Source of the DNA: a virus
IMG/VR virus record: IMGVR_UViG_3300034196_000088
Span: 1-43,440 of that record
Length of the DNA stretch: 43,440 nucleotides
Reading direction: 5' to 3' (one strand)
The notes under the pieces were generated by a model, which ran no database searches, was not told where the DNA came from, and saw nothing but the letters and a program-made list of their open reading frames with translations. Both the position numbers and the translations under genes were made by a program. Shown in pieces: positions 10,844 through 32,780 of this stretch. Positions within the stretch are counted from its first letter, which is position 1. Each line of letters opens with the position of its first letter.

Positions 10844-10877
10844 GGTTCTCGTAAGCTTCGCACTTGCGTTGCTCTTC

Positions 10878-10915: not shown

Positions 10916-10941
10916 GGGTTCTATCGTAGAATCACGATGAA

Positions 10942-10968: not shown

Positions 10969-10990
10969 ATCGCCTTGCGCCAGCCGTGGC

Positions 10991-11012
10991 GCGAGTTTGT
11001 CGCGAGTTTGTC
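10991..11012. repeat. Two tandem copies of an 11-mer
   Basis: GCGAGTTTGTC is repeated exactly twice, ending one base before the stop codon of the 11014-11319 gene. Function is unknown; it may be a slippage duplication. Confidence 0.6.
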
Positions 11013-11013
11013 G

Positions 11014-12373: not shown

Positions 12374-12723
12374 GCCGCCGCCTCCCCCGGCCACTCGTAG
12401 GCCAGGAACTCAGCGACTTCCTCGGCGGTCTGCGCCGGCGCGTCGATCACCCAGCCTTCAGGGATGTCGGCGGCCGGCGCCGGCGCCCCAGCCCGCCGCG
12501 CATCCACAGCGGCGCACAGGGCGTCGAGGGATTCGTCGATAGCGTCAGCAGAGATCGCCTCTTCGGTCTCGCATGCGGCGCGCTGATGCCATGCGCAGGC
12601 GCTATAGATATCCTCGGCGGCGGCGATGACCGGGGCGGCGGCGGCGATCTCGGTGCGCAGGGCGTCGATCTCGGCGCGGGCGGCGGCGAGTCTGCTGCGC
12701 AGGCGCTGCTTTGACATAGACAT
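12370..12723 (-). CDS. Small coiled-coil protein, unknown
   Basis: The start was set at ATG 12723 (MSMSKQRLRSRLAAARAEID), with AAGGAG seven bases upstream. Residues ~5-45 are a heptad-like helix. The rest is acidic and contains ACAWHQRAACETEEAI and a C-terminal EEVAEFLAYEWPGE. It is coupled to the NUMOD3-repeat gene by ATGA and may pair with it. No known family was recognised. Confidence 0.6.
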   Translation of the reverse strand: MSMSKQRLRSRLAAARAEIDALRTEIAAAAPVIAAAEDIYSACAWHQRAACETEEAISADAIDESLDALCAAVDARRAGAPAPAADIPEGWVIDAPAQTAEEVAEFLAYEWPGEAAA

Positions 12724-17925: not shown

Positions 17926-18115
17926 CTTCTGGCGCCGCACGGTGTGGGCGCCCGGATGGTACGACGAAGCCCGCCGCCGGCGCAAGGCGGCCACGGCGAT
18001 CCTCTCTGACGAGGCGCTGCGGGCGCTGATGGCGCCGGACACGCCGAGCCCCCAGCCGCTGGAGGCGACGGGGGGCGAAGAAGACCAGGACCAACAAGGG
18101 ATTGCCCAGCAATGA
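17909..18115 (+). CDS. Small protein, unknown
   Basis: ATG 17909 has AAGGGAG upstream. The 68-residue product begins MPQTSDFWRRTVWAPGWYDE, followed by a basic helix (RRRRKAATAILSDEALRALM) and an acidic, Gln-rich end. The aromatic N-terminus suggests a short interaction motif. It lies directly upstream of the replication-initiator candidate. Confidence 0.55.
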   Translation: MPQTSDFWRRTVWAPGWYDEARRRRKAATAILSDEALRALMAPDTPSPQPLEATGGEEDQDQQGIAQQ

Positions 18116-18158
18116 TACCACAGGCAATGTGTCAGCCAATGTCACAACGGGGGATGCC

Positions 18159-19487
18159 ATGACCGCGCAGATCTACCAGCGACCGACCCCGCTCGACTAC
18201 GACGGGGTGAAACACGGACGAGTCACCCGCAAGATGACCCAGGCCCGCATCCCGGCCACGGCCCGCGTGATTATGGCCGAGGTCTTCCGCGACATCCCGG
18301 TGGGCACGTGGGGGCGAGTCCCCCACCGCACCCTGGCCCGGCGCCTCGACTTCAGCGAGTCGACGGTCAGCCGGGGCATGGATCTCCTGGTTGACTTCGG
18401 CTTCGTGGATCGTCGCCCGCGCGCAGACGGCCCGGGCTACGAGGTATGCCCGCTGCCGCCGCCCGAGCTAAGGCCAAAACTACGCCCGCCGATGCCGCAG
18501 CCCGCCGCCGCCGAATCCCCCGCCGAGATGCCGCCGGGGGCCTCTTTTTACCCCCGCACAGTCGATCATTATGAGTCGATCCCCCTAGAGGGCGTTGAGA
18601 CGCCAAAAAACGACCCTCAGCTACCAGTATCCGTGGATGGGCCTATCTTCTATGATCATACATGCAGCAGCAGCATGCATGGCGCTCATGCGCCGAATAC
18701 GAAACCGGATAGCCCGCCGCAGCCGAGCGAGCCGCCCACACCGCCCGCCGGAAACAACCTTCCGCCGGCGCCGCCGCCCGCGCTGGCCGGCTACTTCCTC
18801 TCGCACCAGTGGCGACAGCTCTGCAAGGTTGCGCCGGCGCGCTACGGCGTCAGCGATCTTGCCGCCGACGTGCTGAAGCTCAAGACGCGCCCCGATCTCA
18901 AGTGGCCCTGGAAGGTGCTGGCCGCCGCCCTGGAGCGTGGCGAGCCGATCTACACCCAGGCCGAGATCGACGCCCGCGACGCCGAACTGCGCGCCCTGGC
19001 TGGCGCGGCGCCGCCGGCGGCGCCGAGACCTGCCCGCGCACAGGGCCGCAGCGACCGCCGCTACCCGGCGGTGATCGACCCTGAGGCATACCGCAACGAT
19101 CCTCTGTATCGCCTCGGCAGCGACACGGATGGCCTCGAAGACGGCGACGAAGAGAGCGAGGAGGAACTGCTGGCCCAGGCCGACGCCGCCCGCGCCGCGC
19201 CCGACGAGGCCCCCGAACTGCTCGACGAGCCAGGGCTACCCGACGAGTCCGACGATGTGCCTTCGCCGCCCGTAGTGCCCCCACCGGCGGCGCCCGGCGA
19301 CGACCCGCTGGCGCTGGCGGTTGCCGCCGTCGAAGGCGCGCCGCCGGATCGACTGGAGCAACATATGCTGCGCGAGCGGCTCAAGGCTGGCGACAGCCCA
19401 GGACAGGCGGCGCAGGCGGTGGCTGCCCGCCGCGAGCGCGCGGACTGGCAGCGCCGGCGCAGGGAGATCCTGAGAGGAGCAACGTGA
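18159..19487 (+). CDS. Replication initiator candidate (winged helix, lambda O-like layout)
   Basis: The start was set at ATG 18159, with GGGGGA upstream. Residues ~15-95 form a winged helix: RKMTQARIPATARVIMAEVF, then VPHRTLARRLDFSESTVSRG and LVDFGFVDRR. A Pro-rich linker (~95-215) follows, then a conserved-looking helical segment (FLSHQWRQLCKVAPARYGVS ... DLKWPWKVLAAALERGEPI), then an acidic disordered part and a basic end. An N-terminal DNA-binding domain, a flexible linker and a C-terminal partner-binding part is the plan of phage O/RepA-type initiators. The linker DNA is rich in repeats (see the origin candidate). Confidence 0.55.
   Translation: MTAQIYQRPTPLDYDGVKHGRVTRKMTQARIPATARVIMAEVFRDIPVGTWGRVPHRTLARRLDFSESTVSRGMDLLVDFGFVDRRPRADGPGYEVCPLPPPELRPKLRPPMPQPAAAESPAEMPPGASFYPRTVDHYESIPLEGVETPKNDPQLPVSVDGPIFYDHTCSSSMHGAHAPNTKPDSPPQPSEPPTPPAGNNLPPAPPPALAGYFLSHQWRQLCKVAPARYGVSDLAADVLKLKTRPDLKWPWKVLAAALERGEPIYTQAEIDARDAELRALAGAAPPAAPRPARAQGRSDRRYPAVIDPEAYRNDPLYRLGSDTDGLEDGDEESEEELLAQADAARAAPDEAPELLDEPGLPDESDDVPSPPVVPPPAAPGDDPLALAVAAVEGAPPDRLEQHMLRERLKAGDSPGQAAQAVAARRERADWQRRRREILRGAT
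18555..18680. other. Candidate replication origin inside the initiator gene
   Basis: This AT-richer island codes the linker of the initiator candidate. It packs GTCGATC twice (18561 and 18575), GGCGT-TGAG-ACGCC (18591-18604) followed by six A, GATCAT motifs, CATGCA-N9-TGCATG (18661-18681) and GGCGC-TCAT-GCGCC just beyond. The placement matches oriLambda inside gene O. It is not proven to be an origin. Confidence 0.4.
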
Positions 19488-19696
19488 TGCCCACAACCCC
19501 GGCCATATCCCCGATCCTTGAGCTAGAGCCGGCCCTGCAGGACGCCTGGCGTCGCCGTGACCGCATCGCCGCCGCGGATCTCAGGGCGCGCCTGGCGACG
19601 CTCTGGGCGCAGCGCCGCGAAGAGCTTGCGGCGCTGTCAAAGCGCACGCCGAGCCGCTGGGACGCGATGCCGTGCAGCGTGCGGAGGCAGGCATGA
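19487..19696 (+). CDS. Small helical protein, unknown
   Basis: ATG 19487 overlaps the initiator stop and has AGGAG upstream. The 69-residue product is one predicted long helix (LELEPALQDAWRRRDRIAAA, LRARLATLWAQRREELAAL). Its position directly after the initiator suggests it might aid replication, but no motif supports this. Confidence 0.55.
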   Translation: MPTTPAISPILELEPALQDAWRRRDRIAAADLRARLATLWAQRREELAALSKRTPSRWDAMPCSVRRQA

Positions 19697-20268
19697 CTAA
19701 GCCAAAGGCGCCGTGGCGCTGCCAGCGCTGCACGATCCTCGACGGCCCGATCCCCCGCGCACATCCGCAATCGAAGCTGTGCGCCGCCTGCGTGGCCGAG
19801 CTACGACGGCGCAACGAGCGCTGGTGCAGCGCCTGTCGCGCGGGCAAGCCCGCCGCCGAGTTCAGCGACTCGCGTGGGGAGCGCAGGAGCTACGTCTGCC
19901 GCGCCTGCCAGAGCGAGCGCAACCGCGCCCGGCGGGCGGCGCACCGCGAGGAGCTGATCGCCTACAGCCGGGCCTACAACGCGGCGCACCGCGAGGAGAT
20001 GGTCGTGCGCAGCCGGGCCTACTACGCGGCGCACAGGGATGAGATCCTGGCCCAGAAGCGGGCCTACTACCGAGCCAACCGCGATCGCATCCGGGCCGCG
20101 AACCGGGCCTATCGCAGCCGTCGCCCGCCGGCCTCGCTGCTCAGGGAGCGCACCCGCCAGACGGAGCGCAGGCCCGCGTACAAGCAGGCCGAGCGCTACG
20201 CCCGCGCCCGCCGGCTGCTGCGCCTGCTGCGCGGCGAAGGAGCGTCCCATGCGCCGCCTGCCAACTGA
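19693..20268 (+). CDS. Zinc-finger protein with 15-residue basic repeats
   Basis: Starts at ATG 19693 (ATGA overlap), 191 residues. The N-terminal ~75 hold four Cys pairs (WRCQRC, LCAAC, WCSACRAGKPAAEF, YVCRAC). Residues ~80-140 are four tandem 15-residue units of the type AAHREEMVVRSRAYY (45-bp DNA repeats), then a basic end. Cys pairs plus RAYNAAHRE repeats are typical of phage proteins often annotated endonuclease VII/HNH-like, but the nuclease part is not visible here. A paralogue is encoded at 23577-23969. DNA or RNA binding is likely. Confidence 0.65.
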   Translation: MTKPKAPWRCQRCTILDGPIPRAHPQSKLCAACVAELRRRNERWCSACRAGKPAAEFSDSRGERRSYVCRACQSERNRARRAAHREELIAYSRAYNAAHREEMVVRSRAYYAAHRDEILAQKRAYYRANRDRIRAANRAYRSRRPPASLLRERTRQTERRPAYKQAERYARARRLLRLLRGEGASHAPPAN

Positions 20269-20353
20269 CCTGGTGCTGATTCTGACCGCCGCCACCGCCA
20301 CGCTGATCGCCGCCGTCCTGGTGCTGGCGGCGCTGCTCACAGGGGCGCTATGA
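20249..20353 (+). CDS. 34-residue single-span membrane peptide
   Basis: ATG 20249 has a strong GAAGGAG upstream, and its stop overlaps the next ATG (ATGA). The product is MRRLPTDLVLILTAATATLI followed by AAVLVLAALLTGAL: a two-Arg cap and one hydrophobic span. It could be a holin-like or regulatory membrane peptide. Coupling at the 3' end and the good ribosome site are the evidence. Confidence 0.55.
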   Translation: MRRLPTDLVLILTAATATLIAAVLVLAALLTGAL

Positions 20354-20568
20354 ACGTCACCGAGCCGTACATCGATGCGCTCGACGACCTGCTGCTCACG
20401 ACCACGGCGATCCGCCCCGGCTGCGGCCTCGGCCCGCCGCTGTCCGACCTGGCCGAGGCCGTGGCCGCCACGGTGCGCGCGACGCTCCCCGTCGCCCGGC
20501 GCGCGGCGGTGACGTGGATGTGGCGCAGGCAGCATCGGCAGGCGCTGAGACGCCTAGAGAGGAACTGA
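20350..20568 (+). CDS. Small protein, unknown
   Basis: This frame of 72 residues is coupled to the membrane peptide. It begins MNVTEPYIDALDDLLLTTTA, continues with a helix LSDLAEAVAATVRATLPVAR and ends basic (RRQHRQALRRLERN). No motif was recognised. Confidence 0.55.
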   Translation: MNVTEPYIDALDDLLLTTTAIRPGCGLGPPLSDLAEAVAATVRATLPVARRAAVTWMWRRQHRQALRRLERN

Positions 20569-20570
20569 CC

Positions 20571-22544
20571 ATGACCCTACGCAAAGCCATCACCCAGCGC
20601 ACGCAGCCGCCGCCCGTCCCTGACGACCTCAGCGGCTGGCGATGGATCAGGCACGAGGGCAGCGCCGAGATCGCGCTGCAATCGCCCGACGGGAAGTATG
20701 CGACCAAGTGGTACCTCAGGGACTTCGACCGCGCAGCGAGCGAGGCGCGGGCGTGGATGGCGGGGCAGGGCGCGCTGGCCGCAACCGCAGCCAAGCTGCT
20801 CGACGGCAGCCTGCCGCTGCCTGACGATCTCGCCGGCTGGGTCTGGGACGCGGGCGATCAGGGCGTGCGACTGGTCAGCGTCGCCCGCCGCGTGTCTACG
20901 CCCTGGGCCGCCCCGGCGAATGCGGCGCGCCTGATCGGCGACGCGCGCGGGATCATCGCCGCCGAGGATGCGGCGCCCACTGAGGAGGCGAAGGCGCACA
21001 CGCTGCTCATCTCCGATATCCGCCGGGACGGCGGCACGCAGGCCCGAGTCGGCAACAATGAGGAGACGGTCGAGTCCTACGCCGAGGCGATGCGCGACGG
21101 GCGCTGGGCGTGGGGATCGAGCAACGCCGTGATCGTCTACGTCGATGCCGAGTGGGTGTACTGGCTGGCCGACGGCTTCCATCGGGTAGAGGCAGCCCAG
21201 CGCGCCGGCCTCGCCACGGTGCTGGCCGACGTGCGGGAGGGCACGCGCCGGGACGCGGTGCTGTATGCCGCCGGGGCCAATGCTGAGCATGGCCTGCGTA
21301 GGACGCGCGCCGATATTCGACAGGCCATTGCGGTCCTGCTGAGGGATGAAGAGTGGCGCCAGTGGAGCGACCGCGAGATTGCGAAGCACTCCCGATGCGA
21401 TCACAAGACAGTCGGATCTGTACGAACGGACTTGATCGCGACTGGGGAAATTCCCCAGTCAACCACGCGGATCGGGGCCGATGGCCGAACGACCACTCCC
21501 CCGTCCTACTCCGAGGTGGCACGCCAGCGCCAGCAGCGGCAGGCGATCAGAGATGCCCGCTTCGACGCCGTTCCGCCGCCCGCATCGGCCCCCGCCGACG
21601 TGGAGATCCGCCAGGAGATCGCCGCCCTGGAGGCCCGGCAGTCCGCCGGGATGTTCAGCGCGGCCGACGCCGCAGCGCTGGCGAAGCTCGATGACGCCCT
21701 GGAGGCGCTGGCCGAGGATCTCGACGATGCCGAGTATGAGTCCCTGGCCCGGCGTATCAGCGACCTGGCCGAGGATGCGCCGACGGCCTACGTCTGCCCG
21801 GTGTGCGGAGAGGACGCGCCCGCGCCGACGGGCGACGCGGATATGTGCGACCGCTGCGCTGGCATGGCGGTACCCGCCGCCCCGGCCGCCTTCCCGCCCG
21901 GCAACGTGGAGGCCGGCATCGGCGCCATCCAGGCCCGCCTGAGCGACGGTGAGCATGAGCTACCCGGCGATCTGGACTGGGCGCGCACGCTGCGTGCGCA
22001 ACTCGACGCCGCACGCGACGGCATGGAGCCCGCCGCCTACCAGCGCTGGTCAGAGCGGCTCGACGTAGCCACCGAGTCCCTGGTGCGGCTGTCGCCGCCG
22101 GACGATGCCCGCCCCGCGCCCGCCGAGGCCCCCGCCCGCACCACCGACTACCACGCCGCGCTGAAGGTCGCAGGCTACGATGTGCCGTCCCTGACGGCGC
22201 TGCGGGCGCTGATCGCCGAGGACTCATCGCTCGACGACACGATGCGCGGGCCGTTCGTGAGCGCGATCAACTGGCGGATACAGCAGATGAGGCCGAGGGT
22301 TGAGGCGGTCGAAGAGGCCGAGGTGATCGAAGAGATCACTGAAGAGGCCAAGAAAGCCGAGGATGATGCCTACGATATCGTCTGGAGCTTGACCTACGAG
22401 CGCCGCCGCAAGCTACTGCGTGCGATGGGAGGGCGCCCCGACGGCGCCGACGATCAGACGGTCACTGACGACCTGGTGGTGCGGATTGAGGAAGGTCTGC
22501 GGCGGGCCGAGGCGCTTGATACGCACTTTGGAAAGGCCGCGTGA
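20571..22544 (+). CDS. ParB/Srx-fold protein with HTH and zinc motif
   Basis: 657 residues from ATG 20571. The first ~130 hold two similar units (DDLSGWRWIRHEG and DDLAGWVWDAGDQ). Residues ~145-230 are ParB N-terminal-like (LLISDIRRDGGTQAR ... WLADGFHRVEAAQRAGL, the G-F-H-R box). Residues ~245-285 carry an HTH (DEEWRQWSDREIAKHSRCDH). After a linker a zinc-ribbon-like C-P-V-C ... C-D-R-C follows near residue 405, then helical parts. ParB-like phage proteins act in DNA binding, partition or regulation. No ParA partner is visible, so plasmid-type partition is uncertain. Confidence 0.75.
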   Translation: MTLRKAITQRTQPPPVPDDLSGWRWIRHEGSAEIALQSPDGKYATKWYLRDFDRAASEARAWMAGQGALAATAAKLLDGSLPLPDDLAGWVWDAGDQGVRLVSVARRVSTPWAAPANAARLIGDARGIIAAEDAAPTEEAKAHTLLISDIRRDGGTQARVGNNEETVESYAEAMRDGRWAWGSSNAVIVYVDAEWVYWLADGFHRVEAAQRAGLATVLADVREGTRRDAVLYAAGANAEHGLRRTRADIRQAIAVLLRDEEWRQWSDREIAKHSRCDHKTVGSVRTDLIATGEIPQSTTRIGADGRTTTPPSYSEVARQRQQRQAIRDARFDAVPPPASAPADVEIRQEIAALEARQSAGMFSAADAAALAKLDDALEALAEDLDDAEYESLARRISDLAEDAPTAYVCPVCGEDAPAPTGDADMCDRCAGMAVPAAPAAFPPGNVEAGIGAIQARLSDGEHELPGDLDWARTLRAQLDAARDGMEPAAYQRWSERLDVATESLVRLSPPDDARPAPAEAPARTTDYHAALKVAGYDVPSLTALRALIAEDSSLDDTMRGPFVSAINWRIQQMRPRVEAVEEAEVIEEITEEAKKAEDDAYDIVWSLTYERRRKLLRAMGGRPDGADDQTVTDDLVVRIEEGLRRAEALDTHFGKAA

Positions 22545-22807
22545 TGTGCGCCCACCCGCTGGCCCTACCCCCCCCCGCTACCCACATCGCCCGCCAGTGC
22601 CCGCGCTGCGGCGGCCCGGTGGCGCTCTGGGGCACGGTGCGCCCCCGGCTGTACTGCAAGGATCGGCGCTGCGGCTGGCGCGGGCCGCCGCCCGTCGACG
22701 CGCTGCTCAGGCGGCAGGGCATGGCGATGCTGCCAGGATTGGAGATTGAAGAGGAGGAATCGATTGAAGGGCGAGCTACGGACATTCCAGGGCATCCTAA
22801 GCCCTGA
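22544..22807 (+). CDS. Zinc-ribbon protein
   Basis: 87 residues from ATG 22544, which overlaps the previous stop. It has a two-pair ribbon, QCPRCGGPVALW and YCKDRRCGWRG, as in small nucleic-acid-binding phage proteins. The C-terminus is acidic (LEIEEEESIEG). A nine-C homopolymer near 22567 could cause sequencing or slippage errors. It overlaps the next gene. Confidence 0.6.
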   Translation: MCAHPLALPPPATHIARQCPRCGGPVALWGTVRPRLYCKDRRCGWRGPPPVDALLRRQGMAMLPGLEIEEEESIEGRATDIPGHPKP

Positions 22808-23099
22808 GTATCTTGGAATATTCGACGGCTTCAATACGGAGCCTGACGGGGAGGCAGTGCGCCGCTACTGGCGCGACAGCGGCCCGGCCTGGTGCCTGAT
22901 CGGGCGCTGCCGCCGCTGCGGATGCACGGATCGCCGTGGCTGCCTCGGCGAATGTCACTGGACAGAGCCGACGCTGTGCAGCCGCTGTGCGCGCTTCCCT
23001 GAGCGGCGGCGCTTTCGGCCGAGCAGGGCCTCGGCGGCGATTATGCCGCTTTTCCTCTATGGCGAGTGGGCGCGACACGTAGATCGGAGTCGAGGATGA
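22764..23099 (+). CDS. Cys-rich zinc-binding protein
   Basis: The start was set at TTG 22764 with AGGAGG six bases upstream; TTG 22746 is the alternative. The 111-residue product has a cluster C-R-R-C-G-C-T-D-R-R-G-C ... C-H-W-T-E-P-T-L-C-S-R-C, a pattern common in small phage zinc proteins of unknown role, then a basic end. It is coupled to the next gene by ATGA. Confidence 0.6.
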   Translation: MKGELRTFQGILSPEYLGIFDGFNTEPDGEAVRRYWRDSGPAWCLIGRCRRCGCTDRRGCLGECHWTEPTLCSRCARFPERRRFRPSRASAAIMPLFLYGEWARHVDRSRG

Positions 23100-23587
23100 G
23101 CGATCACGGCTACGACCCCGCCGTCGCCCGCGCCGTCGCTGCGGTGCGCCGCCTCGACACGGCAGAGATCCGCCTATCGATGGAGAAGACACGGGCGGAA
23201 CTGACCCAGCCCGGCGTCCGCTGCCCGAAGCGCATAGGGATATCGCTGATAAGCATCATCGGACATCTGTGCAACTCCCTCGATCAGGCCAGGGTTGAGC
23301 TACGCCAGACGGCGCACTACCAGTATCTCTACGGCGCCCTCGTCACCGACTACAACGGCCTCATCGAGACGCTGCGCAGCCTCGGCATTGAGATCTCCCA
23401 GCCCAGCGGCTCCGAGCGCTGGCACTGGAGCTACGGCCCGCAGACAGGCGCCGCGCCGACGGTGGCAGGGGCGGCTGCGCAGGCGCTCAGGGCGTGCGGC
23501 GCTATCCCCTGGCACGATGAGGCGGCCTACGCTGACGAGGCGGCGCAGCGGGCCGCGCAGAGAGCCGAGGATGCCAATGGGAGCTGA
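23096..23587 (+). CDS. Hypothetical protein, 163 residues
   Basis: ATG 23096 overlaps the previous stop. The product begins MSDHGYDPAVARAVAAVRRL, has a helical core with HLCNSLDQARVELRQTAHYQ and LVTDYNGLIETLRSLGIEI, and ends in an Ala-rich helix. It seems to be an all-helical protein. No family was recognised. Confidence 0.6.
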   Translation: MSDHGYDPAVARAVAAVRRLDTAEIRLSMEKTRAELTQPGVRCPKRIGISLISIIGHLCNSLDQARVELRQTAHYQYLYGALVTDYNGLIETLRSLGIEISQPSGSERWHWSYGPQTGAAPTVAGAAAQALRACGAIPWHDEAAYADEAAQRAAQRAEDANGS

Positions 23588-23969
23588 GTGGCGCTGCCAG
23601 CGCTGCCTGCGCTGCCCGCCGTACGTCGTGAGGCACGGCGTGCGGCCGACGTGCAACCGCTGCCATGCGGAGCTTGCGGCGAAGGGCCTGAAGTGGTGCG
23701 GGGCGTGCGACAAGGCCCTGCCGCTGGCATCGTTCGCCGCAGCCGGCGGAAAGGGCGACGGCAGGCGCGGCACCTGCAGGGCCTGCTACGCACCCCAGCG
23801 CCGCAAGATCGCCACCGCGTCGGTGCGGCGCTGGCGCGAGCGCAACCGCGATCACGTCCGCGCCTACAACCGAGCCTACAAGGCGGCGCGCCGAGAGACC
23901 ACGCGCCGCCAGCGCCGGCTCTGCTACATCCGCTGGAAGCTGCGCATTTTGACCAGAGAGGAGCCCTGA
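23577..23969 (+). CDS. Zinc-finger protein, paralogue of 19693-20268
   Basis: 130 residues; ATG 23577 with GAGG upstream (ATG 23571 possible). Cys pairs occur as WRCQRCLRC, TCNRC, WCGACDKALPLASF and TCRAC, followed by a basic helix (RERNRDHVRAYNRAYKAARR). Order and spacing match the protein at 19693, but here the 15-residue unit is barely repeated. The two paralogues in one operon suggest a duplicated nucleic-acid-binding module. Confidence 0.65.
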   Translation: MGAEWRCQRCLRCPPYVVRHGVRPTCNRCHAELAAKGLKWCGACDKALPLASFAAAGGKGDGRRGTCRACYAPQRRKIATASVRRWRERNRDHVRAYNRAYKAARRETTRRQRRLCYIRWKLRILTREEP

Positions 23970-23971
23970 CC

Positions 23972-24202
23972 TTGCACCCCTATCACTACCAGATCGACTC
24001 GTCCCGCGCCGCCACCCTCGGCCCGGCGCCCGCAGACCGCCGCCGCGCCGCCCGGCGCCTGCTCGGCCTCGGCCGCGCCACGCTGGCCGCCGTGGCCGCC
24101 GCCTGGTACGGCGGCGACGACCGCGCCGCCCGCCGCGAGATCTACGCCGGCAGCGTCGGCTCGCAGATCGCCATGATGCCCGTGGCGGCGGTGCGGCCGT
24201 GA
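23972..24202 (+). CDS. Small protein, unknown (TTG start)
   Basis: TTG 23972 has GAGGAG upstream, and the stop overlaps the next GTG. The 76-residue product begins MHPYHYQIDSSRAATLGPAP and is then Ala/Arg-rich helix (RRRAARRLLGLGRATLAAVA). The coupled layout is the main support. Function is unknown. Confidence 0.5.
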   Translation: MHPYHYQIDSSRAATLGPAPADRRRAARRLLGLGRATLAAVAAAWYGGDDRAARREIYAGSVGSQIAMMPVAAVRP

Positions 24203-24441
24203 GCGCCGCAGATCCCGCTGAGACAGCCCTGGAGCTGCTGATCGCCTACATCCGGTCGAACTACGCGCCGGCCTCCCCCACGCGCCGCCTGCTGACCGCC
24301 TACGAGGCGCAGCAGGCCGAGCTATCGCAGCTGCGCGCCGAGGTCGCATCGCTGCGCCAGTGTCTCGCGCTGAGCAACGCAGAGCCGACGGCGGCGCAGG
24401 TCGAAGGCTGGCGCGCCGCCGCAGACGAGGAGAGGCATTGA
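24199..24441 (+). CDS. Small coiled-coil protein, unknown
   Basis: GTG 24199 gives a GTGA overlap. The 80-residue product has LELLIAYIRSNYAPASPTRR and a heptad helix (YEAQQAELSQLRAEVASLRQ). It overlaps the next gene as TTGA. This layout is typical of small early phage proteins with no known role. Confidence 0.55.
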   Translation: MSAADPAETALELLIAYIRSNYAPASPTRRLLTAYEAQQAELSQLRAEVASLRQCLALSNAEPTAAQVEGWRAAADEERH

Positions 24442-24914
24442 GCAACGCATCGAAGACACGAGGCCGCGCCGTGCGCAACGATCGGCGCGTGATCAAGCCC
24501 CCGGCCGAGTGGGGGCCGTGGGTGTACCGCCCGACGACGGCGGGGAAGACGCTCCCGAACGGGATGCCGACCCCTCCCGAGCTGCGCGACTGGGCAAGGG
24601 GGCTGCTCTGGGCTGCGTACAACCACGTGTACACGGTGCAGGCACGGATCATCGCCGGCGCGTGGGGCGATATCGAGCACCTCGTGATACGCACAAACGA
24701 CCGTAGCCCCGCCGTCGCCCGCGCCGTGCCGTGGTGGCACTACCAGCTGATCAAACAGCTCTGCGCGCACGGCGATCAGCGCTGGGCGGTCGAAGTGTTC
24801 CCGCCGAACACTGAGATCGTCGACGCCGAGGATCTGTACCACCTGTGGGTGTTTCCGCTGGGCTTCGCGCCGCCGTTCAACCTGTTTCATGGCGATGTAG
24901 ACGCCGAGACATAG
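24438..24914 (+). CDS. Hypothetical protein, DUF7694-like
   Basis: The start was set at TTG 24438, with GAGGAG upstream. The 158-residue product has a basic lead, then WGPWVYRPTTAGKTLPNGMP, HLVIRTNDRSPAVARAVPWW, KQLCAHGDQRWAVEVFPPN and YHLWVFPLGFAPPF. The pattern of a basic start, an E-V-F-P-P strand and the H-L-W-V end resembles the small DUF7694 family of phage and plasmid proteins, role unknown. It closes the long rightward operon. Confidence 0.6.
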   Translation: MSNASKTRGRAVRNDRRVIKPPAEWGPWVYRPTTAGKTLPNGMPTPPELRDWARGLLWAAYNHVYTVQARIIAGAWGDIEHLVIRTNDRSPAVARAVPWWHYQLIKQLCAHGDQRWAVEVFPPNTEIVDAEDLYHLWVFPLGFAPPFNLFHGDVDAET

Positions 24915-24917
24915 CAA

Positions 24918-24943
24918 GGCCCCGGCCATTGCTGGCCGAGGCC
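24918..24943 (+). terminator. Hairpin closing the rightward operon
   Basis: GGCCCCGGCCA and TGGCCGAGGCC pair over ten of eleven positions around TTGC. It has no T-run. A second small stem (GTAGG/CCTAC, A-rich loop) follows at 24954-24974. Confidence 0.5.
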
Positions 24944-24980
24944 CAATCCCAATGTAGGCCCGGAAAAAACCTACGCATAT

Positions 24981-25010
24981 AGCATAGCACGCGACGGCGG
25001 GCGCTGTCAG
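24981..25010 (-). promoter_or_regulatory. Antisense promoter candidate
   Basis: Minus-strand CTGACA (25010-25005), 18 bp, and the extended -10 TGCTATGCT. It points back into the end of the rightward operon, so it would make an antisense or counter-transcript. The -10 block is identical to those at 5943 and 7235. Confidence 0.4.
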
Positions 25011-25077
25011 TAGCAGCGCCCGCCCAGCGGCCGGGAGCGTCTCGGCCACTGTAGCGCCCAGTATACAGGAGCGAACC

Positions 25078-25818
25078 ATGAGGCCCACACACGACCCGAA
25101 CGAGTCCGACGTGATGACCCAGGCCAAGGCCCGCCGCGCCGCCGCAGACGACCCGCGCCCGCGCCCCGGCCCCATCGCCGGGCCGAGGCCCGCGCCGATG
25201 CTGCCCCGCGTGGCGCAGTCCCCGGCGATCCTCGTGATCGTCGCCATCCTGGCCAGCATTGCCGGCTGCGCCATGCTTGGCCCGCCCGCCGCGCTCACGA
25301 CCGGCGCCCCCGCCGCCACCGCCCAGCCGGCCGCCGCCACGACAGAGCCGACAGAGCCGACGGCCGGGCCTTCGCCGACGGCCGCGACGCCGCGCGCCAT
25401 GCCCGCCTGGTGGAGCCCCGGCGATCTCGACGAGATGACCGTGATCATCACGGACTACCCCACGCTGCTGGCGCAGTGCGCGAGCCACCCAGACATCGTG
25501 TACATCCAGATCCCAGGCGGCGGGCGGGTCTGGGTGCGCGCCGGGGACATTGACCGCCCCAGCGTGTCCCTGCTGCCCTACGCGCCGGGCGACTGCCAGC
25601 CCCCGGCCGCCCCGCAGCCGCCCGCCGCACCCGCCGCGCCGGCGCCGCCGATCTACGTCGCCCCGGCGTCGCAGGTTGACGCGCCGCCAGAGCCGAGCAG
25701 CACGGCGGTGCCCGAGGTGACCGCCGCGCCCGCGCCGACGGCCGCGCCCGCCGGGGACTGCCCGCCGCCGTTCAGCGCCGGCGGATGCCGCAACTACGTG
25801 GCCGTGCCGCAGGGCTAG
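25078..25818 (+). CDS. Secreted/lipoprotein-like Pro-Ala-Thr-rich protein
   Basis: 246 residues, AGGAG before ATG 25078. A long polar N-terminus leads to a hydrophobic segment ILVIVAILASIAGC, ending in a lipobox-like I-A-G-C. Next comes a low-complexity Pro/Ala/Thr region, a small domain (TVIITDYPTLLAQCASHPDI ... GGRVWVRAGDIDR), another Pro-rich linker and a Cys-containing end (DCPPPFSAGGCRNYVAVPQG). Probably anchored at the outer face of the membrane. It is separated from the early operon by hairpins, so it may be a lysogenic-conversion or exclusion gene. Confidence 0.6.
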   Translation: MRPTHDPNESDVMTQAKARRAAADDPRPRPGPIAGPRPAPMLPRVAQSPAILVIVAILASIAGCAMLGPPAALTTGAPAATAQPAAATTEPTEPTAGPSPTAATPRAMPAWWSPGDLDEMTVIITDYPTLLAQCASHPDIVYIQIPGGGRVWVRAGDIDRPSVSLLPYAPGDCQPPAAPQPPAAPAAPAPPIYVAPASQVDAPPEPSSTAVPEVTAAPAPTAAPAGDCPPPFSAGGCRNYVAVPQG

Positions 25819-25833
25819 CCGACGATTGACGAT

Positions 25834-25860
25834 GCGCCCCGGTGGGTGTCGCCGGGGCGC
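25834..25860 (+). terminator. Hairpin between cassette genes
   Basis: GCGCCCCGG / CCGGGGCGC, a perfect 9-bp stem with a nine-base loop and no T-run, lies 20 bases before the next ATG. Confidence 0.4.
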
Positions 25861-25880
25861 GATGAAGAGAAAGCAGAGCG

Positions 25881-26726
25881 ATGACCACCTTCGCACTTCG
25901 ACCGCGGACATTTCGCGACGCGATGATCCGCGAGCCTATCCAGCTCGCCATCTCGCAGCCGCACCAGGTGCTGATCAGCTCGATCAGCGTCTCGCTGATG
26001 GCGATCTTCTTCGCCTCGTCGGGCGCCGTGCCCGCCGCCGCCGCGTGGGCGGGCGCCGTGGGCGTCGAGTACGCCTACCTCAAGGGCCTCAGCGATGCGG
26101 CCTACACCCGCAGCGAGTGGGGCATGCGGCTGGTGTGGGGGGCCTTCGCAATCATCGTGATCGCCGGCATCAGCGTGCTGCTGCGCGACGCCTACCACAT
26201 GCCGTGGATGGTCAGCCCTCCGGCGCCGCTGGCCGTGCTACTGGCCGTGCTGCACATCCTCCCCCTCGCATTCATCGGCCTGTGCAGCGCGAACCTGCAC
26301 ATGGAGGCCGAGGGCCAGCGCGTGGCGGCTGACCGGGCGGTGATCGACCGGGCCAAGGACATGGAGCAGGAGGAGCAGGAGTACCAGCGCGAGCGCGAGC
26401 GGCGGCGAAAACAGTTTACGGACGATCTGGAGGTGGAGCGCGCGCGGAAGGCGCTCGACATCGAGTCCTATGAGGCCGCGACGCTGGCGAAGCAGCGGCT
26501 GCGCGCGGCGGCGAACACCGCTGCCGCGAACACCGCGAACACTGGCCCGCATGACGCATCAGGAACGGGAACGAACAGTGTTCGCGAACAGCAGCGGGCG
26601 CACGTCGTGCGAACACTCCGCGAACACCCTGACACGAACAAGACACAGCTCGCAAAAGAGCTGCAGATCGGGCGCACATTGCTCTACGCACTTATCGCCG
26701 AGGCGAAGGATCGCGGCGAATTGTAA
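25881..26726 (+). CDS. Membrane protein with coiled coil and C-terminal HTH
   Basis: 281 residues. Three to four hydrophobic segments lie between ~30 and 145 (VLISSISVSLMAIFFASSG, LVWGAFAIIVIAGISVLL, PLAVLLAVLHILPLAFIGLC). A highly charged coiled coil covers ~150-205 (EQEEQEYQRERERRRKQFTD), then an Ala/Asn/Thr linker, then a helix-turn-helix ~235-281 (TLREHPDTNKTQLAKELQIG, RTLLYALIAEAK). So it seems to tether a DNA-binding domain to the membrane. The linker DNA holds eight CGAACA repeats. A loose likeness to membrane proteins of mobile plasmids (DUF2637 type) is possible. Confidence 0.65.
   Translation: MTTFALRPRTFRDAMIREPIQLAISQPHQVLISSISVSLMAIFFASSGAVPAAAAWAGAVGVEYAYLKGLSDAAYTRSEWGMRLVWGAFAIIVIAGISVLLRDAYHMPWMVSPPAPLAVLLAVLHILPLAFIGLCSANLHMEAEGQRVAADRAVIDRAKDMEQEEQEYQRERERRRKQFTDDLEVERARKALDIESYEAATLAKQRLRAAANTAAANTANTGPHDASGTGTNSVREQQRAHVVRTLREHPDTNKTQLAKELQIGRTLLYALIAEAKDRGEL
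26512..26640. repeat. Eight CGAACA repeats (iteron-like)
   Basis: CGAACA starts at 26512, 26527, 26536, 26572, 26585, 26610, 26621 and 26635, with an inverted TGTTCG at 26579. All are inside the linker and HTH coding part of the membrane protein gene. They may be binding sites or a by-product of an Ala-Asn-Thr-rich linker. Confidence 0.55.
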
Positions 26727-26777
26727 GGAATTCGACGATAACCGTTTGTGCTGCGCGGCGCGGACAAACCAGGCGCC

Positions 26778-26921
26778 GTGAGTCGTGAGGAGCTAGTAGA
26801 TCGCGTGCGGGCCGCATACGCCGCAGATGCGGCCTTCAGCCGTGCGGATATGGCCCGCACAACGGGGTGGTCAGAGGCCCTGGTGCGCAAGGTGATCAAA
26901 GAGATTCAGGGGGTTCAGTGA
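26778..26921 (+). CDS. 47-residue HTH protein
   Basis: An overlooked small frame starts at GTG 26778 with AGG upstream; its TGA overlaps the next ATG (TGATG). The product begins MSREELVDRVRAAYAADAAF and has a helix-turn-helix FSRADMARTTGWSEALVRKV, ending IKEIQGVQ. Probably a minimal DNA-binding protein between two membrane-protein genes. Confidence 0.55.
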   Translation: MSREELVDRVRAAYAADAAFSRADMARTTGWSEALVRKVIKEIQGVQ

Positions 26922-27517
26922 TGCAGGCCTACGACGTAGACGAGAAGGGCCGCCGCACGCAGGCGAAGGCGCAGGGTGTGGCGAAGTCGCAGGGCGCAGC
27001 GCCGGCGGAAGACGAGGCGCCGCCGAGGGTGTGGGCGAAGCCACACGAGACAGGGGTTATCGAGGTTGATCTGGTGGCGCGGAGCGCCGTGCCGCTCGTG
27101 CAGCTGATCGCGGTTGTGCTCTGGGTGCTCTCGCTCATCGGCACGTATGTGCCCTTCGCGGGCGGGTGGGATGTGGTGCTGGTGAAGCTGTGGCCGCCAT
27201 TATCGGCGGCGCTGTGGCTGGCGCTGGGCACGCAGATCCCGCTGAGCCTGGGGCAGTGGGCGTTTAAATCCAGGGCGATCCTGTGGTGGCGAAACCGTGA
27301 TCGCTACGGGGTGATCGCGGTGCAGACCTCGCTGGGATGGTGGGCGGCCTATGCGGTGGCGCTCGTGCTCTCGGCGGCGTTCTCCGCCGTCACCTACGGG
27401 CAGTGGATCGTGCCGCTCCTCACCGGCCTTGGGCCGGCGTGGGCGGCGTGGATCATCATCGGGATCGCTGCTATACTGGGCGATATGCTGCCAGAGTGGA
27501 TCATGATCAGGGACTAG
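26921..27517 (+). CDS. Multi-span membrane protein, unknown
   Basis: 198 residues from ATG 26921, coupled to the small HTH gene. A polar N-terminal ~50 residues are followed by about four spans (VPLVQLIAVVLWVLSLIGTY, LWPPLSAALWLALGTQIPL, LGWWAAYAVALVLSAAFSAV, AAWIIIGIAAILGDM). There is no transporter or enzyme motif. It is flanked on both sides by genes for membrane-tethered DNA-binding-like proteins, so the group may form one complex. Confidence 0.6.
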   Translation: MQAYDVDEKGRRTQAKAQGVAKSQGAAPAEDEAPPRVWAKPHETGVIEVDLVARSAVPLVQLIAVVLWVLSLIGTYVPFAGGWDVVLVKLWPPLSAALWLALGTQIPLSLGQWAFKSRAILWWRNRDRYGVIAVQTSLGWWAAYAVALVLSAAFSAVTYGQWIVPLLTGLGPAWAAWIIIGIAAILGDMLPEWIMIRD

Positions 27518-27526
27518 GAGGCGGGG

Positions 27527-28132
27527 ATGGGCGCGACACCAGGAAGCACGGCGGGCGGGATATTCGTCCTGGCAATCATGATCTTGATCATCATCGGCGG
27601 GGCGCTGAAAGTCTATCTCACGTGGTTCTTCCCGCGCCACTTTTCCTTTGGCCCTGTCAACCCTTCCGGCCTCGATTATGACAAGAAGCCGACGAAGGAC
27701 GCCGGTGATGATCGCGATTTCCGCGCTTCCCGCCAGGAAGCGGAAGCGGAAGCGCGCCCGGAAGCGGCGCGCGGAAGCGCGGGCGGCATCGTCAGCTTTA
27801 CCGAAAAGGCCTTACAGTCGCGGGATGCGGATCGCGACGCCGCAACCTACGAGCGCGCCGCCGTCGAGGTGTTTGCGGCGCTGCTCAAGGCCGGCTACCT
27901 GGAGTCGGCCGTGAGTTCGAGGAAGATCGGCGCGGCGAAGCAGCTGATCTTCGGGGTCAGCGGCGGGCGCAAGCTCCAGGCCCTCAACGATGCGATCGAC
28001 GCGGTTGATGTGCCGACGTCCCCCGAGCCCGCCCCGCCCGCCGCGCCCCCCGAGCCGCCCCGCGTGGTCAAGGTGAACGCTGGCCGCCCCGATGAGCGCG
28101 AGGTGCCCCTCCAGATGGAGCCCGCCCCCTAG
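27527..28132 (+). CDS. Membrane-anchored protein with winged-helix-like domain
   Basis: 201 residues, AGGAGG before ATG 27527. There is one N-terminal span (GIFVLAIMILIIIGGALKV), then an acidic Glu/Ala linker encoded by GGAAGC repeats. The domain at ~105-165 (ERAAVEVFAALLKAGYLESA, IGAAKQLIFGVSGGRKLQAL) recalls FtsK-gamma-like winged helices, in which a G-V-S-G-G-R-K turn is typical. The tail is Pro-rich. It is the last gene of the cassette before a strong terminator. Confidence 0.55.
   Translation: MGATPGSTAGGIFVLAIMILIIIGGALKVYLTWFFPRHFSFGPVNPSGLDYDKKPTKDAGDDRDFRASRQEAEAEARPEAARGSAGGIVSFTEKALQSRDADRDAATYERAAVEVFAALLKAGYLESAVSSRKIGAAKQLIFGVSGGRKLQALNDAIDAVDVPTSPEPAPPAAPPEPPRVVKVNAGRPDEREVPLQMEPAP
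27736..27778. repeat. Five GGAAGC repeats
   Basis: Copies start at 27736, 27742, 27748, 27760 and 27773, with an inverted GCTTCC at 27725. They encode the Glu-Ala linker and could also form a hairpin. Confidence 0.5.
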
Positions 28133-28153
28133 CCCCGCCCTTCGCCGAACGCA

Positions 28154-28190
28154 GCGCCGCCCCGATCCTCACTGAGGATCGGGGCGGCGC
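28154..28190 (+). terminator. 17-bp perfect terminator between convergent modules
   Basis: GCGCCGCCCCGATCCTC pairs exactly with 28174-28190 around ACT, followed by TCTTTGATT on the plus strand. It separates the rightward cassette from the leftward structural operon. Confidence 0.85.
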
Positions 28191-28207
28191 TCTTTGATTC
28201 TCGGCGG

Positions 28208-28591: not shown

Positions 28592-29490
28592 GGCTGGATC
28601 GCGATCTGGACTGCGGCGCCCGTATTAAATTTGACCATGAGCCTGGTCTTCCCTGCGCCGTTGTCTTCCACGTACAGCCGCGCCGTGTTCGCTGCGCCCG
28701 CTGCCGGCGCGGACATCTCACTGATCTCGACGAAGCCGGCGCCGAGCCGAGAGTTGCCGCCGTCTGAGTAGATCTGCCAGTTCGCGCCGCCCGCCGTCTG
28801 CTGCTCCAGATAGAGCCCGGCGGCCGTCGCGATCGTGCCGCCGCCGCTGTTGACGATGGCGTTGATTAAAAATCCCGCCATCCGCGTGACGATGCCCGCC
28901 GCGAGGTTGCGCACGTCGAGCCGGCCGCCCTGGACGCGCGCCGTGGTGCCCGTATTGGTGTTGAACACGGACAGAACGATGCCGCTCTGTCCCTTGGCCT
29001 CCGACGACGATGCAGATCCCCGGTAGCGATTTATCGCGAACAGCGATCCTGTCTGCGCCGCCGTATCGCTGCTGTTTGTCGTGTCCACCTCGATGATGGC
29101 GCCGGCCTCCAGTGTCGCCGGGCTCGCCGGCGCCCGGTAGGCGTAGAGCGCGGCGTAGCTCAGCGCCGCCGCCCCGATCCCCTGGCCCACGCTGAACTGG
29201 TTCGCCACGTTGAGCAGCGGCACGTTGCTCGACAGCCGCGCGTCGTCGAGCGTGCCGATCCAGGAGCGCACGCCGGCGGTTGTGGAGCTCAGCACGTAGC
29301 CGTTGCTGGCGGGGTTGCCCAGCGCCGGCTCTACGTTGTCCAGGTCGACGACCCCCGGCGACCCGTTGGAGGCCGGCGCCACCTGCGTGCCAGGGAGCTG
29401 ATCGATGATGCAGGAGGCCGGCACGCGGTAGTTGGCTAGCCGCGCCTCATCGGCGCGCTTGATCGCGGCGCTGAATCGCTTGTTGCTCAT
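28588..29490 (-). CDS. Tail fibre / receptor-binding protein candidate
   Basis: 300 residues, start ATG 29490 (ATGA overlap with the hub gene). A short helical attachment part (MSNKRFSAAIKRADEARLAN) is followed by a long beta-rich, Asn/Ser/Thr/Gly-rich shaft (PLLNVANQFSVGQGIGAA, IIEVDTTNSSDTAAQTGSL). The C-terminal strand pair LYVEDNGAGKTRLMVKFNTG and AVQIAIQP is typical of phage tail-spike and fibre ends. It probably sets host recognition. Confidence 0.7.
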   Translation of the reverse strand: MSNKRFSAAIKRADEARLANYRVPASCIIDQLPGTQVAPASNGSPGVVDLDNVEPALGNPASNGYVLSSTTAGVRSWIGTLDDARLSSNVPLLNVANQFSVGQGIGAAALSYAALYAYRAPASPATLEAGAIIEVDTTNSSDTAAQTGSLFAINRYRGSASSSEAKGQSGIVLSVFNTNTGTTARVQGGRLDVRNLAAGIVTRMAGFLINAIVNSGGGTIATAAGLYLEQQTAGGANWQIYSDGGNSRLGAGFVEISEMSAPAAGAANTARLYVEDNGAGKTRLMVKFNTGAAVQIAIQP

Positions 29491-32400
29491 GAGGCCACCA
29501 CCTCCACCCAGTCGGCCAGCGTGACGCCGGGGGGCGTGCCGGTCGTCTGCCATGCGCCGTCACCGACGCGATAGGCGATCATGGCCGCCACGGTGCTCAG
29601 CGCCGCCACGGCGGTATTCGTCGCCGAGTCCGCGGCCACGGCGGCGACGCCAGAGCCAGGAAGCGCCACCACCGACGCCGACGGCGTGCCGCTGAGGCCG
29701 GCCACCTCGGTGACGCCCGCCGCGCCGCCCACATAGGCGGCGTCGCCCACGATGCCCACGCCGCGCCCGCCGAGGGCCGAGGCCAGCAGCGCCGGGGCGC
29801 TGGCGGCGCGGTAGTCGGCGACGCAGTAGAGGTCGGCGCCGACGAAGCCGACGATCGTGCGCGTCCCCGGCGCCCGGGCGATCCACGTCCACTCGGCGGG
29901 CGCCGCGCTGCCGAGCACGAGCGACCCGTCAGCGCGCACGCAGTCCACAGCGCGGGCCGACGTGCCGCCGCTGTAGGTCGTGGTCACCAGGTCGTTATCC
30001 GTGCCGGCGCAGCTGTAGTAGTGGTTGCGGGTGGCGCTGATCAGCGTGGCCGCGCCGCTCGGGCTGTCGGCCGAGAGCCGCCAGAGGTACGAGCCCGCGT
30101 CGGGCGACGTCTGCCCGATGACCACGAAGGCCCCGCCGGTCGTCGCGCCCCAGATCGGCGCGATGTCGGGGTGCTGGCCGGCGGGGAAGCCGCCGAGGGT
30201 GACGCTGACCCACGTCGCCCCGCCGTCGGTGGACACGTAGAGCGGCGACGCGCTGCCGTCGTCGCTCTTGACCACGCCGCCCACGACGCTGTGACGCCCG
30301 ATGCTGATCGTATTCCCGGCCAGCAGCAGATGCTGGGGGTTGGCCGGCGATACCAGCAGGAAGCGCCAGTACCAGGCGGCGTGGGGCGGCGTGATCTTGG
30401 ACCAGGCCCCGGCGGCGTTGCGCCAGATGCCGTCGCCCGCGCCGCTCACGCCGGAGCTGAGCACGTAGAGGATGGCGTTGTGCAGCCCCGTGGTGCCCAG
30501 CCCAACGCGGTGCGCCTGCTGCCCAGCGGCGGGTCGGTAGAAGAGTCCGAGGCTATCACTCAGCGGCCAGTACTTCTTGACATCGCCCTGCGCCGCGCCG
30601 AACGTGGCCAGGTAGACGATGGGATCATCGGGGTCGCCGAGGGCGTGCATCGCCGTCTCGCCGGCCGCCAGCGACCCGCCGTTGGCCACGGCGATCCCCG
30701 TGGTCGAGTCCACCGTCCACCCCCGGCCCTGCGCGTCCCATGCCCAGACGGTCAGCTCATCGGCGGCCAGCGCCAGCGCCCGGATCTCAGTGACCGCCGG
30801 CGATACCACGGGGAATGTCGCCGTGATCGGCCCCTCGATACGCTGGAGCGGGGAGCCGATGAATGAGCCGGTGTAGCAGACCCAGGTTGTGGCCCCAGAC
30901 TGCCCGCGTGCCATCTGGCGCGCCGTCGCCCCCGCCGGGCCAGCGTAGAGCACATCCGTGCCGTGGTAGACGTTGGCCCCGGCCAGGCAGAACACCGAGT
31001 CGATCACGGCGGGGTCTTCGAGCACGCCGATCACGCTGGCCGGCAGCGTGGCCCACGCCGCGAACGTCGCCCCGCCATCAATCGAGCGCTCTAGCGCCGT
31101 GCCCACGGCGGCCCAGACGCGCAGCGGGAGGCCCTCAGTCACGCTGAGCGCGGTGATCGTGCCGGCGAATGAGTTGATCGGCGTGGAGGCCGTGGCCAGC
31201 GCGTCCGAGGTGCCCCGCAGATAGCTGCTCCCTGCCCCATTCGTCGCCAGCAGCTGCGGCCCGCCGATCTCAGGCACCAGCGTACAGTCGCCCGTCGCCT
31301 CCACGCCCCACGTCGCCCCGCCGTCGGAGGTCACCGCCCACGCCGAGCCGAGGGCCACGCTGATCACGCGCTTGTTGACCGCCGTGGTCGCATCGCCGGC
31401 CAGCGTGACATCCTGGGTGATGCTGCCAGTTTTGCTGCTGGTATCGGTGACCGTCAGGGTGATCGACGCCGTCGCCGTGGCCGCCGAGTAGATGAACATC
31501 GCCTTGGCGCCGGTTGCCGTGTCCGCCGTGCCGGCCAGGACGGCGGTCGACGTCGTCCAAGCCCACGCGACGATCTCACCGTCGCCGAGGCTGTGTGAGC
31601 CGCTGCCATCCAAGAAGACCTCGATCACCGATGTGCCGTTGAGCGTCTCAGCGACCAGGCGCCACGCGAACGATGCCTCAGGCGGGGGGAGCGTCGTGTA
31701 GCCCTGATCGCCCGTGCCGCCGTCGAGAGTCAGCGACTGGGCGAAGTCGCCCTTCTGCAAGTCCATGCTGCTCGACAAGCTATAGATAAAGAAGCTCTTG
31801 GGGGAGCCGTAGCCGATGGGGGCGCACTCGATACCGAGGGTCATGCCGACGGCGATCCGGGGATCGGCCTTCAGCCGGCCGACGCGGATCACGTTGGGCT
31901 GGCGGCTCCAGAGCTTCAGCAGCCGCTTGGCCACGCCGGTCACTGAGGCGTTTCCTGCCTCCGACTCGTTGACGAACTCAATCAGGGCGCTGGAATACTC
32001 TAGGCTGCGATCTGCATCGCCCGTCTGCCACTCATCGTGGATCTGCGCGCCCTGGACTCCCGTGTTCGCGCCTTTGACGACCACCCGGTTTTTGACCTGG
32101 CTGGCGTCGCGCTCCCTGTCGGGCGCCCCGGTCAACAGGAAGTCTTCGCCCCAGCGTAGCGTGCGGAACGGCGAGTCCGAGGGCCGGCGCTCAAGCAGCG
32201 TGGCTTTGACCGTGCCGTCGGCGGTGGCGTAGAGCCAGTAGCCGAGGACGGCGGCGATCTCCTGGCAGGCAGCCAGCGGCGTGGTATTGCTAAATGAGAC
32301 CGGGGTCAGCTGGCCCAGCTTCCACTCCGACCCGCCCCATGCGCTGCCCGACGCGGCCAGCGCTGGGATGCTCAGGCGGGTCAGTCCGGCCGCGCCGAGG

Positions 32401-32780
32401 AACTGCGTGATCGCGGCGCTCGCGGCCACATCGTTGAGCGGCGACGCGGCCAGATCGCTGCGCCGAATGCCAGCGAGCCAGAGCGGGTCAGCCACCTGCA
32501 GGCGCCACTGGTTTGGGTAGCTCTTCTGGAGGATCTTGGTCACGACGCCGCTGAACCCGCTGACTTCGTGGCCGTCATAGCCCCAGGTCCAACTCACCCG
32601 CGTCTCGCCCTCCACGATCGTCACCGGCGGATTACGCCCGACGACCTCACCGCTACTGGCACCTTGCCCATACGATTGCTCACGGCTAAGGCTGAGCACG
32701 TCGGCCCAGCGCGCCCCGTTGAGGCGCACCGTGGCCGTGGGCTTGCGCGATGTGGCGGCGATGCGGTCTGCGAGTGACAT
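29487..32780 (-). CDS. Tail hub protein fused to PKD-like and Asp-box propeller domains
   Basis: 1097 residues. Residues ~1-370 look like a tail-hub / late control D-type protein (WADVLSLSREQSYGQG, VTIVEGETRVSWTWGYDGHE, LLERRPSDSPFRTLRWGEDF). Residues ~375-470 form a PKD/Ig-like domain (EVFLDGSGSHSLGDGEIVAW, ITLTVTDTSS). The remaining ~600 residues show Asp-box (BNR) repeats (TSDGGATWG, SIDGGATFAAW, STDGGATWVSV) and many short beta blades, as in sialidase-like propellers. The hub threads the DNA, and the propeller may bind or process surface sugars. No complete catalytic set can be read. Confidence 0.7.
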   Translation of the reverse strand: MSLADRIAATSRKPTATVRLNGARWADVLSLSREQSYGQGASSGEVVGRNPPVTIVEGETRVSWTWGYDGHEVSGFSGVVTKILQKSYPNQWRLQVADPLWLAGIRRSDLAASPLNDVAASAAITQFLGAAGLTRLSIPALAASGSAWGGSEWKLGQLTPVSFSNTTPLAACQEIAAVLGYWLYATADGTVKATLLERRPSDSPFRTLRWGEDFLLTGAPDRERDASQVKNRVVVKGANTGVQGAQIHDEWQTGDADRSLEYSSALIEFVNESEAGNASVTGVAKRLLKLWSRQPNVIRVGRLKADPRIAVGMTLGIECAPIGYGSPKSFFIYSLSSSMDLQKGDFAQSLTLDGGTGDQGYTTLPPPEASFAWRLVAETLNGTSVIEVFLDGSGSHSLGDGEIVAWAWTTSTAVLAGTADTATGAKAMFIYSAATATASITLTVTDTSSKTGSITQDVTLAGDATTAVNKRVISVALGSAWAVTSDGGATWGVEATGDCTLVPEIGGPQLLATNGAGSSYLRGTSDALATASTPINSFAGTITALSVTEGLPLRVWAAVGTALERSIDGGATFAAWATLPASVIGVLEDPAVIDSVFCLAGANVYHGTDVLYAGPAGATARQMARGQSGATTWVCYTGSFIGSPLQRIEGPITATFPVVSPAVTEIRALALAADELTVWAWDAQGRGWTVDSTTGIAVANGGSLAAGETAMHALGDPDDPIVYLATFGAAQGDVKKYWPLSDSLGLFYRPAAGQQAHRVGLGTTGLHNAILYVLSSGVSGAGDGIWRNAAGAWSKITPPHAAWYWRFLLVSPANPQHLLLAGNTISIGRHSVVGGVVKSDDGSASPLYVSTDGGATWVSVTLGGFPAGQHPDIAPIWGATTGGAFVVIGQTSPDAGSYLWRLSADSPSGAATLISATRNHYYSCAGTDNDLVTTTYSGGTSARAVDCVRADGSLVLGSAAPAEWTWIARAPGTRTIVGFVGADLYCVADYRAASAPALLASALGGRGVGIVGDAAYVGGAAGVTEVAGLSGTPSASVVALPGSGVAAVAADSATNTAVAALSTVAAMIAYRVGDGAWQTTGTPPGVTLADWVEVVAS

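Follow-up and report, generated by a model that had tools for sequence, protein, structure and literature searches.

Why a phage should close an operon with a run of small membrane proteins, some of them with apparent DNA-binding domains, is the question raised by this locus. It lies in the virus record IMGVR_UViG_3300034196_000088, whose 43,440 bases are the whole stretch of DNA analysed here (the window). The earlier note had seen in it a five-gene envelope cassette, set off by a hairpin, that ties DNA-binding domains to the membrane. Five consecutive plus-strand open reading frames, P1 to P5, are indeed all present at 25078-28132, with a coding-like third-position GC content of 0.82-0.94 (0.67 in the 47-aa frame), and the hairpin and the membrane spans likewise stand; the lipoprotein label given to P1 does not, and the winged-helix call for P5 is not confirmed. 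The cassette and its surroundings are as follows.

About 18102-28132, plus strand: operon of which the cassette is the final part
Within this operon: replication-initiator-like winged-helix protein (weak matches only)
Within this operon, ahead of the cassette: small genes and DUF7694
20514-22544, plus strand: ParB-like protein, 676 aa (phrog_1033, E 5.7e-17), upstream of the cassette in the same operon
24996-25024, upstream of the cassette: hairpin with 11-bp perfect arms and a 7-nt loop (repeat search)
25078-25818, plus strand: P1, 246 aa, single span, Pro/Ala-rich outer part
25881-26726, plus strand: P2, 281 aa, about four spans, long coiled-coil helix, C-terminal HTH
26778-26921, plus strand: P3, 47-aa HTH protein (57 aa if GTG at 26748 is the start)
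26921-27517, plus strand: P4, 198 aa, four spans
27527-28132, plus strand: P5, 201 aa, N-terminal span, linker, conserved C-terminal domain, no ATPase
28153-28191, 3' of the cassette: terminator-like 19-bp perfect inverted repeat (scored as terminator)

The last of these repeats separates the cassette operon from a converging tail operon, and the terminase, capsid-side and tail protein genes of the window all lie on the minus strand. Contig L003, whose terminase region is 100% identical to that of the window, joins the window ends (1 and 43440) in one run, with window positions 41579-43413 adjoining 897-7084, and the phage genome is therefore circular or circularly permuted. Elsewhere on the minus strand there are two tyrosine recombinases about 9 kb apart (6074-7084 and 16219-17169; Phage_integrase, E 7.5e-23 and 3e-17), one of which may be a resolvase, and a NUMOD3-repeat protein (11873-12394, E 4.2e-29) in which no nuclease domain was seen. 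A likely lysis pair, encoded on the minus strand at 4320-5494, far from the cassette, combines a glucosaminidase-like protein (E 8e-4) with one that carries hydrophobic segments at its C-terminal end. The tail protein at 29487-32780 (minus strand, 1097 aa) carries BNR-like repeats, and its N-terminal 860 residues are 78% identical to a counterpart on contig L002, the C-terminus being divergent.

The five window proteins have no above-cut-off match in Pfam, NCBIfam or PADLOC, and a functional PHROG was found only for the small HTH protein P3 (phrog_7061, E 1.2e-4). P3 also resembles the head of the P2 HTH (BLAST against the P2 homologue of genome G092, E 3.4e-4 in a small set), and the description of it as a 47-residue HTH protein is upheld. 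The case for P2 as a multi-span protein with coiled coil and HTH is likewise good: AF2 without an alignment, which gave a usable helix layout, placed four spans and a confident 106-residue helix, and both termini are predicted to be cytoplasmic by the positive-inside rule (topology calls throughout use hydropathy and charge alone). The C-terminal HTH is weak in the window protein (HTH_7, E 0.023, below Pfam cut-offs), and the full-length homologue in G092 (E 1.6e-28) passes the curated cut-off for HTH_24 (22.6 vs 21.9 bits). A PDB profile search with P2 gave no meaningful match. Assignment of P2 to DUF2637 (PF10935) was considered and rejected, as there was no Pfam match and hhalign against a Chloroflexia DUF2637 protein gave E 0.011 at a probability of 3.7%. 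One genome of that class does encode a DUF2637 protein with an HTH and four spans, next to a TrwB/TraG-like protein (contig L093, 788-3468, minus strand), and this pair is a Spd-like arrangement outside Actinobacteria. A remnant of a P2 gene, with coiled coil, HTH and an internal stop, was also seen in G092 (L077, about 10850-11250), next to a transposase and following a ThiF-like gene that, with its neighbours, may resemble a PRTRC cassette.

P1 has one hydrophobic span (residues 50-68) and an SD-like AGGAG just 5' of its start. The proposal that it is lipoprotein-like finds no support, because 49 residues precede the lipobox-like 'IAGC' and the Cys is missing at this site from the sole positional homologue (n=1), a single-span, Pro-rich protein to which P1 has no significant sequence similarity and whose gene lies 13 bp ahead of that for the P2 homologue in G092 (L076). 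The four hydrophobic segments of P4 were confirmed by hydropathy. P5, which starts 10 bp downstream of P4, has one span (about 11-33) and a C-terminus predicted to be cytoplasmic. Four homologues are 31-45% identical to it, and it contains no Walker A motif; AF2 from the single sequence yielded no usable model (pLDDT 54.7), and a PDB profile search gave no meaningful match. The idea that two membrane proteins with DNA-binding domains are grouped here is thus strengthened by the confident HTH of the P2 homologue and by the standing of P5 as a conserved family behind P4, and is left without its winged helix, which structure prediction did not confirm.

Relatives of the cassette are few. Single-sequence searches with P2, P4, P5 and their homologues against annotated phages, plasmids, IMG/VR and GTDB contigs returned nothing, and P2 and P4 were not seen in the partial records of related phages found through the terminase and tail protein. 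A concatenated query run over 400 Chloroflexota genomes yielded the full-length P2 homologue (G092) and two P5 homologues (G326, G055), with the P4 gene immediately upstream of P5 in G326. Profile searches added P5 loci in G446 and further P4 loci, and a P4 profile run over 400 genomes from the phylum returned only two loci, both already known. When profiles were built without the window, its own P4 and P5 were still recovered from among 657 frames, at E 7.5e-12 and E 1.4e-23 respectively. Among 158 genomes of the inferred class Chloroflexia, P4 occurs in six, P5 in three and P2 in two, leaving out weak matches such as that in G463; those in G246, G424 and G438 were also weak and, on inspection, were rejected as chance.

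In the profile searches, homologues were found only in this class and in mobile-element-like contigs. The relatives (G055, G092, G326, G443, G446, G455, G456 and G277) share one class within the phylum of a Chloroflexota genome, and one of them has chlorophyllide-reductase-like genes; we infer the class name from these observations. Since all relatives fall in one class, Chloroflexia is the likely host group of the phage, which probably infects filamentous members. The neighbours of the relatives include DnaB, DUF927, DUF3854, AAA_25, Replic_Relax and ALP actin, together with a RepA-like ATPase and FtsK-like translocases, and it is from such neighbours that these contigs, which are pieces of draft genomes, are judged to belong to mobile elements. 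The full five-gene set was seen nowhere but in the window, as was the placement of P2 beside P4-P5; P1-P2 recurs once outside it, in G092 (n=1, the families being small). The expectation that the genes would co-occur elsewhere therefore holds by half, failing for the set as a whole but not for the sub-pairs P1-P2 and P4 with its partner.

The second of these sub-pairs is the most informative. In all nine P4 loci read, window included, P4 is followed directly by a gene for a single-span protein, at a spacing of 1-12 nt in most loci and about 110 nt in G277. At four loci (G446:C238, G455, G456 and G277) this partner carries a Walker A ATPase between the membrane helix and a C-terminal tail; at the other five (the window, G326, G055, G446:C397 and G446:C305) there is none. 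The G455 partner matches PF01580 FtsK_SpoIIIE (E 1.1e-13) and, in PDB, FtsK and a conjugative coupling protein, which is also a DNA translocase, and the remaining three ATPase-bearing partners have weak matches to TraD, EccC or HerA-like families. Both kinds of partner are predicted by the positive-inside rule to have a short N-terminus outside and the C-terminus inside. By sequence comparison, then, the P4 family is one that pairs with single-span translocases or with P5, and P4-P5 resembles the pair that P4 forms with an FtsK/TraD/HerA-like membrane DNA translocase, minus the motor.

The C-terminal tails may extend this likeness. That of the motorless P5 at G446:C305 significantly resembles the tails of the G456 and G277 translocases (Z 5.7, with none of 500 shuffles as good), and the window P5 tail is closest to that of G455 (Z 4.15; p 0.004, uncorrected for the 24 P5-translocase comparisons made). 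In hhalign, P5 tails gave no significant match to translocase tails, and the link for the window P5 is only suggestive, as is any likeness to the C-terminal winged-helix (gamma) domain by which FtsK/SpoIIIE-type translocases are recognised. In the P4 tree, motorless pairs fall on two branches, and on one of these they adjoin a motor-bearing locus (UFBoot 96), but most nodes are weak. Four loci of the P4/P5 type lie on separate contigs of G446 (L088, L089, L099 and L108): one bears a motor, two have P4 but no motor, and in the fourth P5 (P5_G446c156) follows a multi-span protein unrelated to P4.

Compared with the FtsK/SpoIIIE- and TraD/TcpA-type translocases of plasmids and ICEs, the window pair is alike in its homologous upstream P4, adjacency, N-terminal span, cytoplasmic body and compact C-terminal tail, but P5 is about half as long and the whole ATPase is missing. 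P5 was accordingly rejected as an FtsK-type translocase: the predicted N-terminal anchor and cytoplasmic C-terminus are in place, but the defining ATPase is not. It may instead act alongside such a translocase or as a substitute for one. Nor was an FtsK-like motor found elsewhere in the window, where the motif G....GK[ST] occurs in the terminase only and a profile of the four translocases finds nothing significant. For the motor-bearing P4 pairs, FtsK/SpoIIIE-type transfer in AICEs would by analogy be the best precedent (PMC3218068).

What, then, might the cassette do? Our best explanation, which we hold tentatively and at somewhat short of an even chance, is that it docks the element's own DNA at the membrane, as the last part of a replication/maintenance operon. 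P2, through its four spans, coiled coil and cytoplasmic HTH, would tie DNA to the cytoplasmic side of the membrane. P5 may do the same through its single span, linker and cytoplasmic C-terminal domain, with P4 as its membrane partner; P1 would extend outside the cell, and P3 would act as a soluble HTH protein, perhaps sharing sites with P2. As P4-P5 matches the P4-translocase pair in gene order and topology but lacks the ATPase, it would be a tether rather than a pump, perhaps passing DNA to a motor encoded elsewhere. Such docking could help the DNA to be replicated, segregated or delivered to that motor. The replication operon around the cassette and the replication and plasmid genes beside its relatives fit such a site, and of the roles suggested by the earlier note, DNA anchoring or prophage maintenance agrees best with the relatives' neighbours, although the tethering and replication or segregation role is itself inferred. 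Against docking, P4 and P5 track each other imperfectly, the tail of the window P5 is only weakly similar to those of translocases, and neither the five-gene set nor P2 next to P4-P5 was seen outside the window.

Membrane proteins that handle DNA are not without precedent in phages and plasmids. The phi29 protein p16.7, marked by its binding of ssDNA or terminal protein at the membrane, consists of a membrane anchor, a coiled coil and a DNA-binding C-terminal domain and is the product of a replication gene; P2 may be likened to it in layout and setting. The phi29 protein, however, has one span to P2's four and belongs to a protein-primed phage, and P2 has no Pfam or PHROG match of this kind. 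With its role at the membrane and in DNA handling, p16.7 would nevertheless offer by analogy the best phage precedent, p1 of phi29 being another (PMC4974454). Among plasmids, the best precedent may be SpdB2 (PMC4170104), one of the Spd proteins of Streptomyces plasmids, in which a DNA-binding membrane protein likewise sits amid small membrane genes on a mobile element, but the cassette has no significant sequence match to them, is set in a phage, and the window has no TraB. DUF2637-like HTH-4TM proteins are possible relatives in this comparison.

The likeness to Spd proteins raises the alternative, which we consider unlikely, that the cassette is a transfer accessory, a Spd-like complex of several proteins that would help the element's DNA pass from one cell of the filament to the next, drawing on an FtsK/TraB-like motor supplied by the host or by a plasmid that it carries. 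The four loci that pair P4 with FtsK/TraD-like translocases, including the one closest in PDB to FtsK and a conjugative coupling protein, would suit this idea, as would the Chloroflexia genome in which a DUF2637 HTH-4TM protein adjoins a TraG-like one, the behaviour of SpdB2 as an oligomeric DNA-binding membrane protein that interacts with TraB (PMC4170104), and the need for a single FtsK/SpoIIIE-like protein in AICE transfer (PMC3218068). Yet the window has no motor, a tailed phage has other means of travel, and the similarity of P2 to DUF2637 is not significant. Phage exclusion, also raised by the earlier note, gains nothing from the defence library, as PADLOC matched none of the five proteins. 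It is likewise unlikely that a motorless P4-P5 mixes into and blocks the translocase complexes of incoming or resident elements, or that the cassette blocks the replication of other phages at the membrane, even if the P4 tree has motorless partners on two branches or more (with low support) and membrane-anchored nucleic-acid binding can serve defence, as in the lactococcal abortive infection protein AbiP and PdpSau of a staphylococcal prophage (PMC10127798). These differ from the cassette in being single genes with an OB-like or charged C-terminal domain that target other phages, and no match to them was found; moreover, most motorless pairs lie near replication genes, no repressor or lysis gene is seen adjoining the window cassette, and five genes are a large set for exclusion.

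The HTH of P2, the stand-alone HTH protein P3 and the parts of P1 and P2 outside the cell would also be consistent with membrane-tethered, one-component transcription regulators, in which P2 and P5 respond to a signal from the envelope by controlling phage genes, with P3 as a small co-regulator. We regard this as improbable, as it would not predict the conserved pairing of P4 with translocase-type partners, and two tethered binding proteins would share one operon. Least probable of all is a chance gathering of unrelated small membrane genes at the operon end: that the full set is seen nowhere else, and that P1 is not significantly similar to its positional homologue, would be expected by chance, but the repeated adjacency of P4 with its partner and of P1 with P2 in other elements would not.

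A broader speculation can be added, which we put forward as rather doubtful. Perhaps mobile elements of Chloroflexia, phages among them, carry a family of motorless P4-P5 modules with several separate origins in P4-translocase pairs. Acting in trans in multicellular filaments, these modules would either bring an element's DNA to the membrane or septum, where a borrowed motor takes over, or poison the motor of a rival. P4-P5 offers a defined and testable pair, found in phage and chromosomal elements, in which a DNA pump would have lost its motor and retained the parts that sit in the membrane and touch DNA. If this interpretation of the pair is correct, it would show how the elements of filamentous bacteria position DNA at the membrane, and would open a way to study how DNA is inherited and transferred in a phylum where little work has been done on either.
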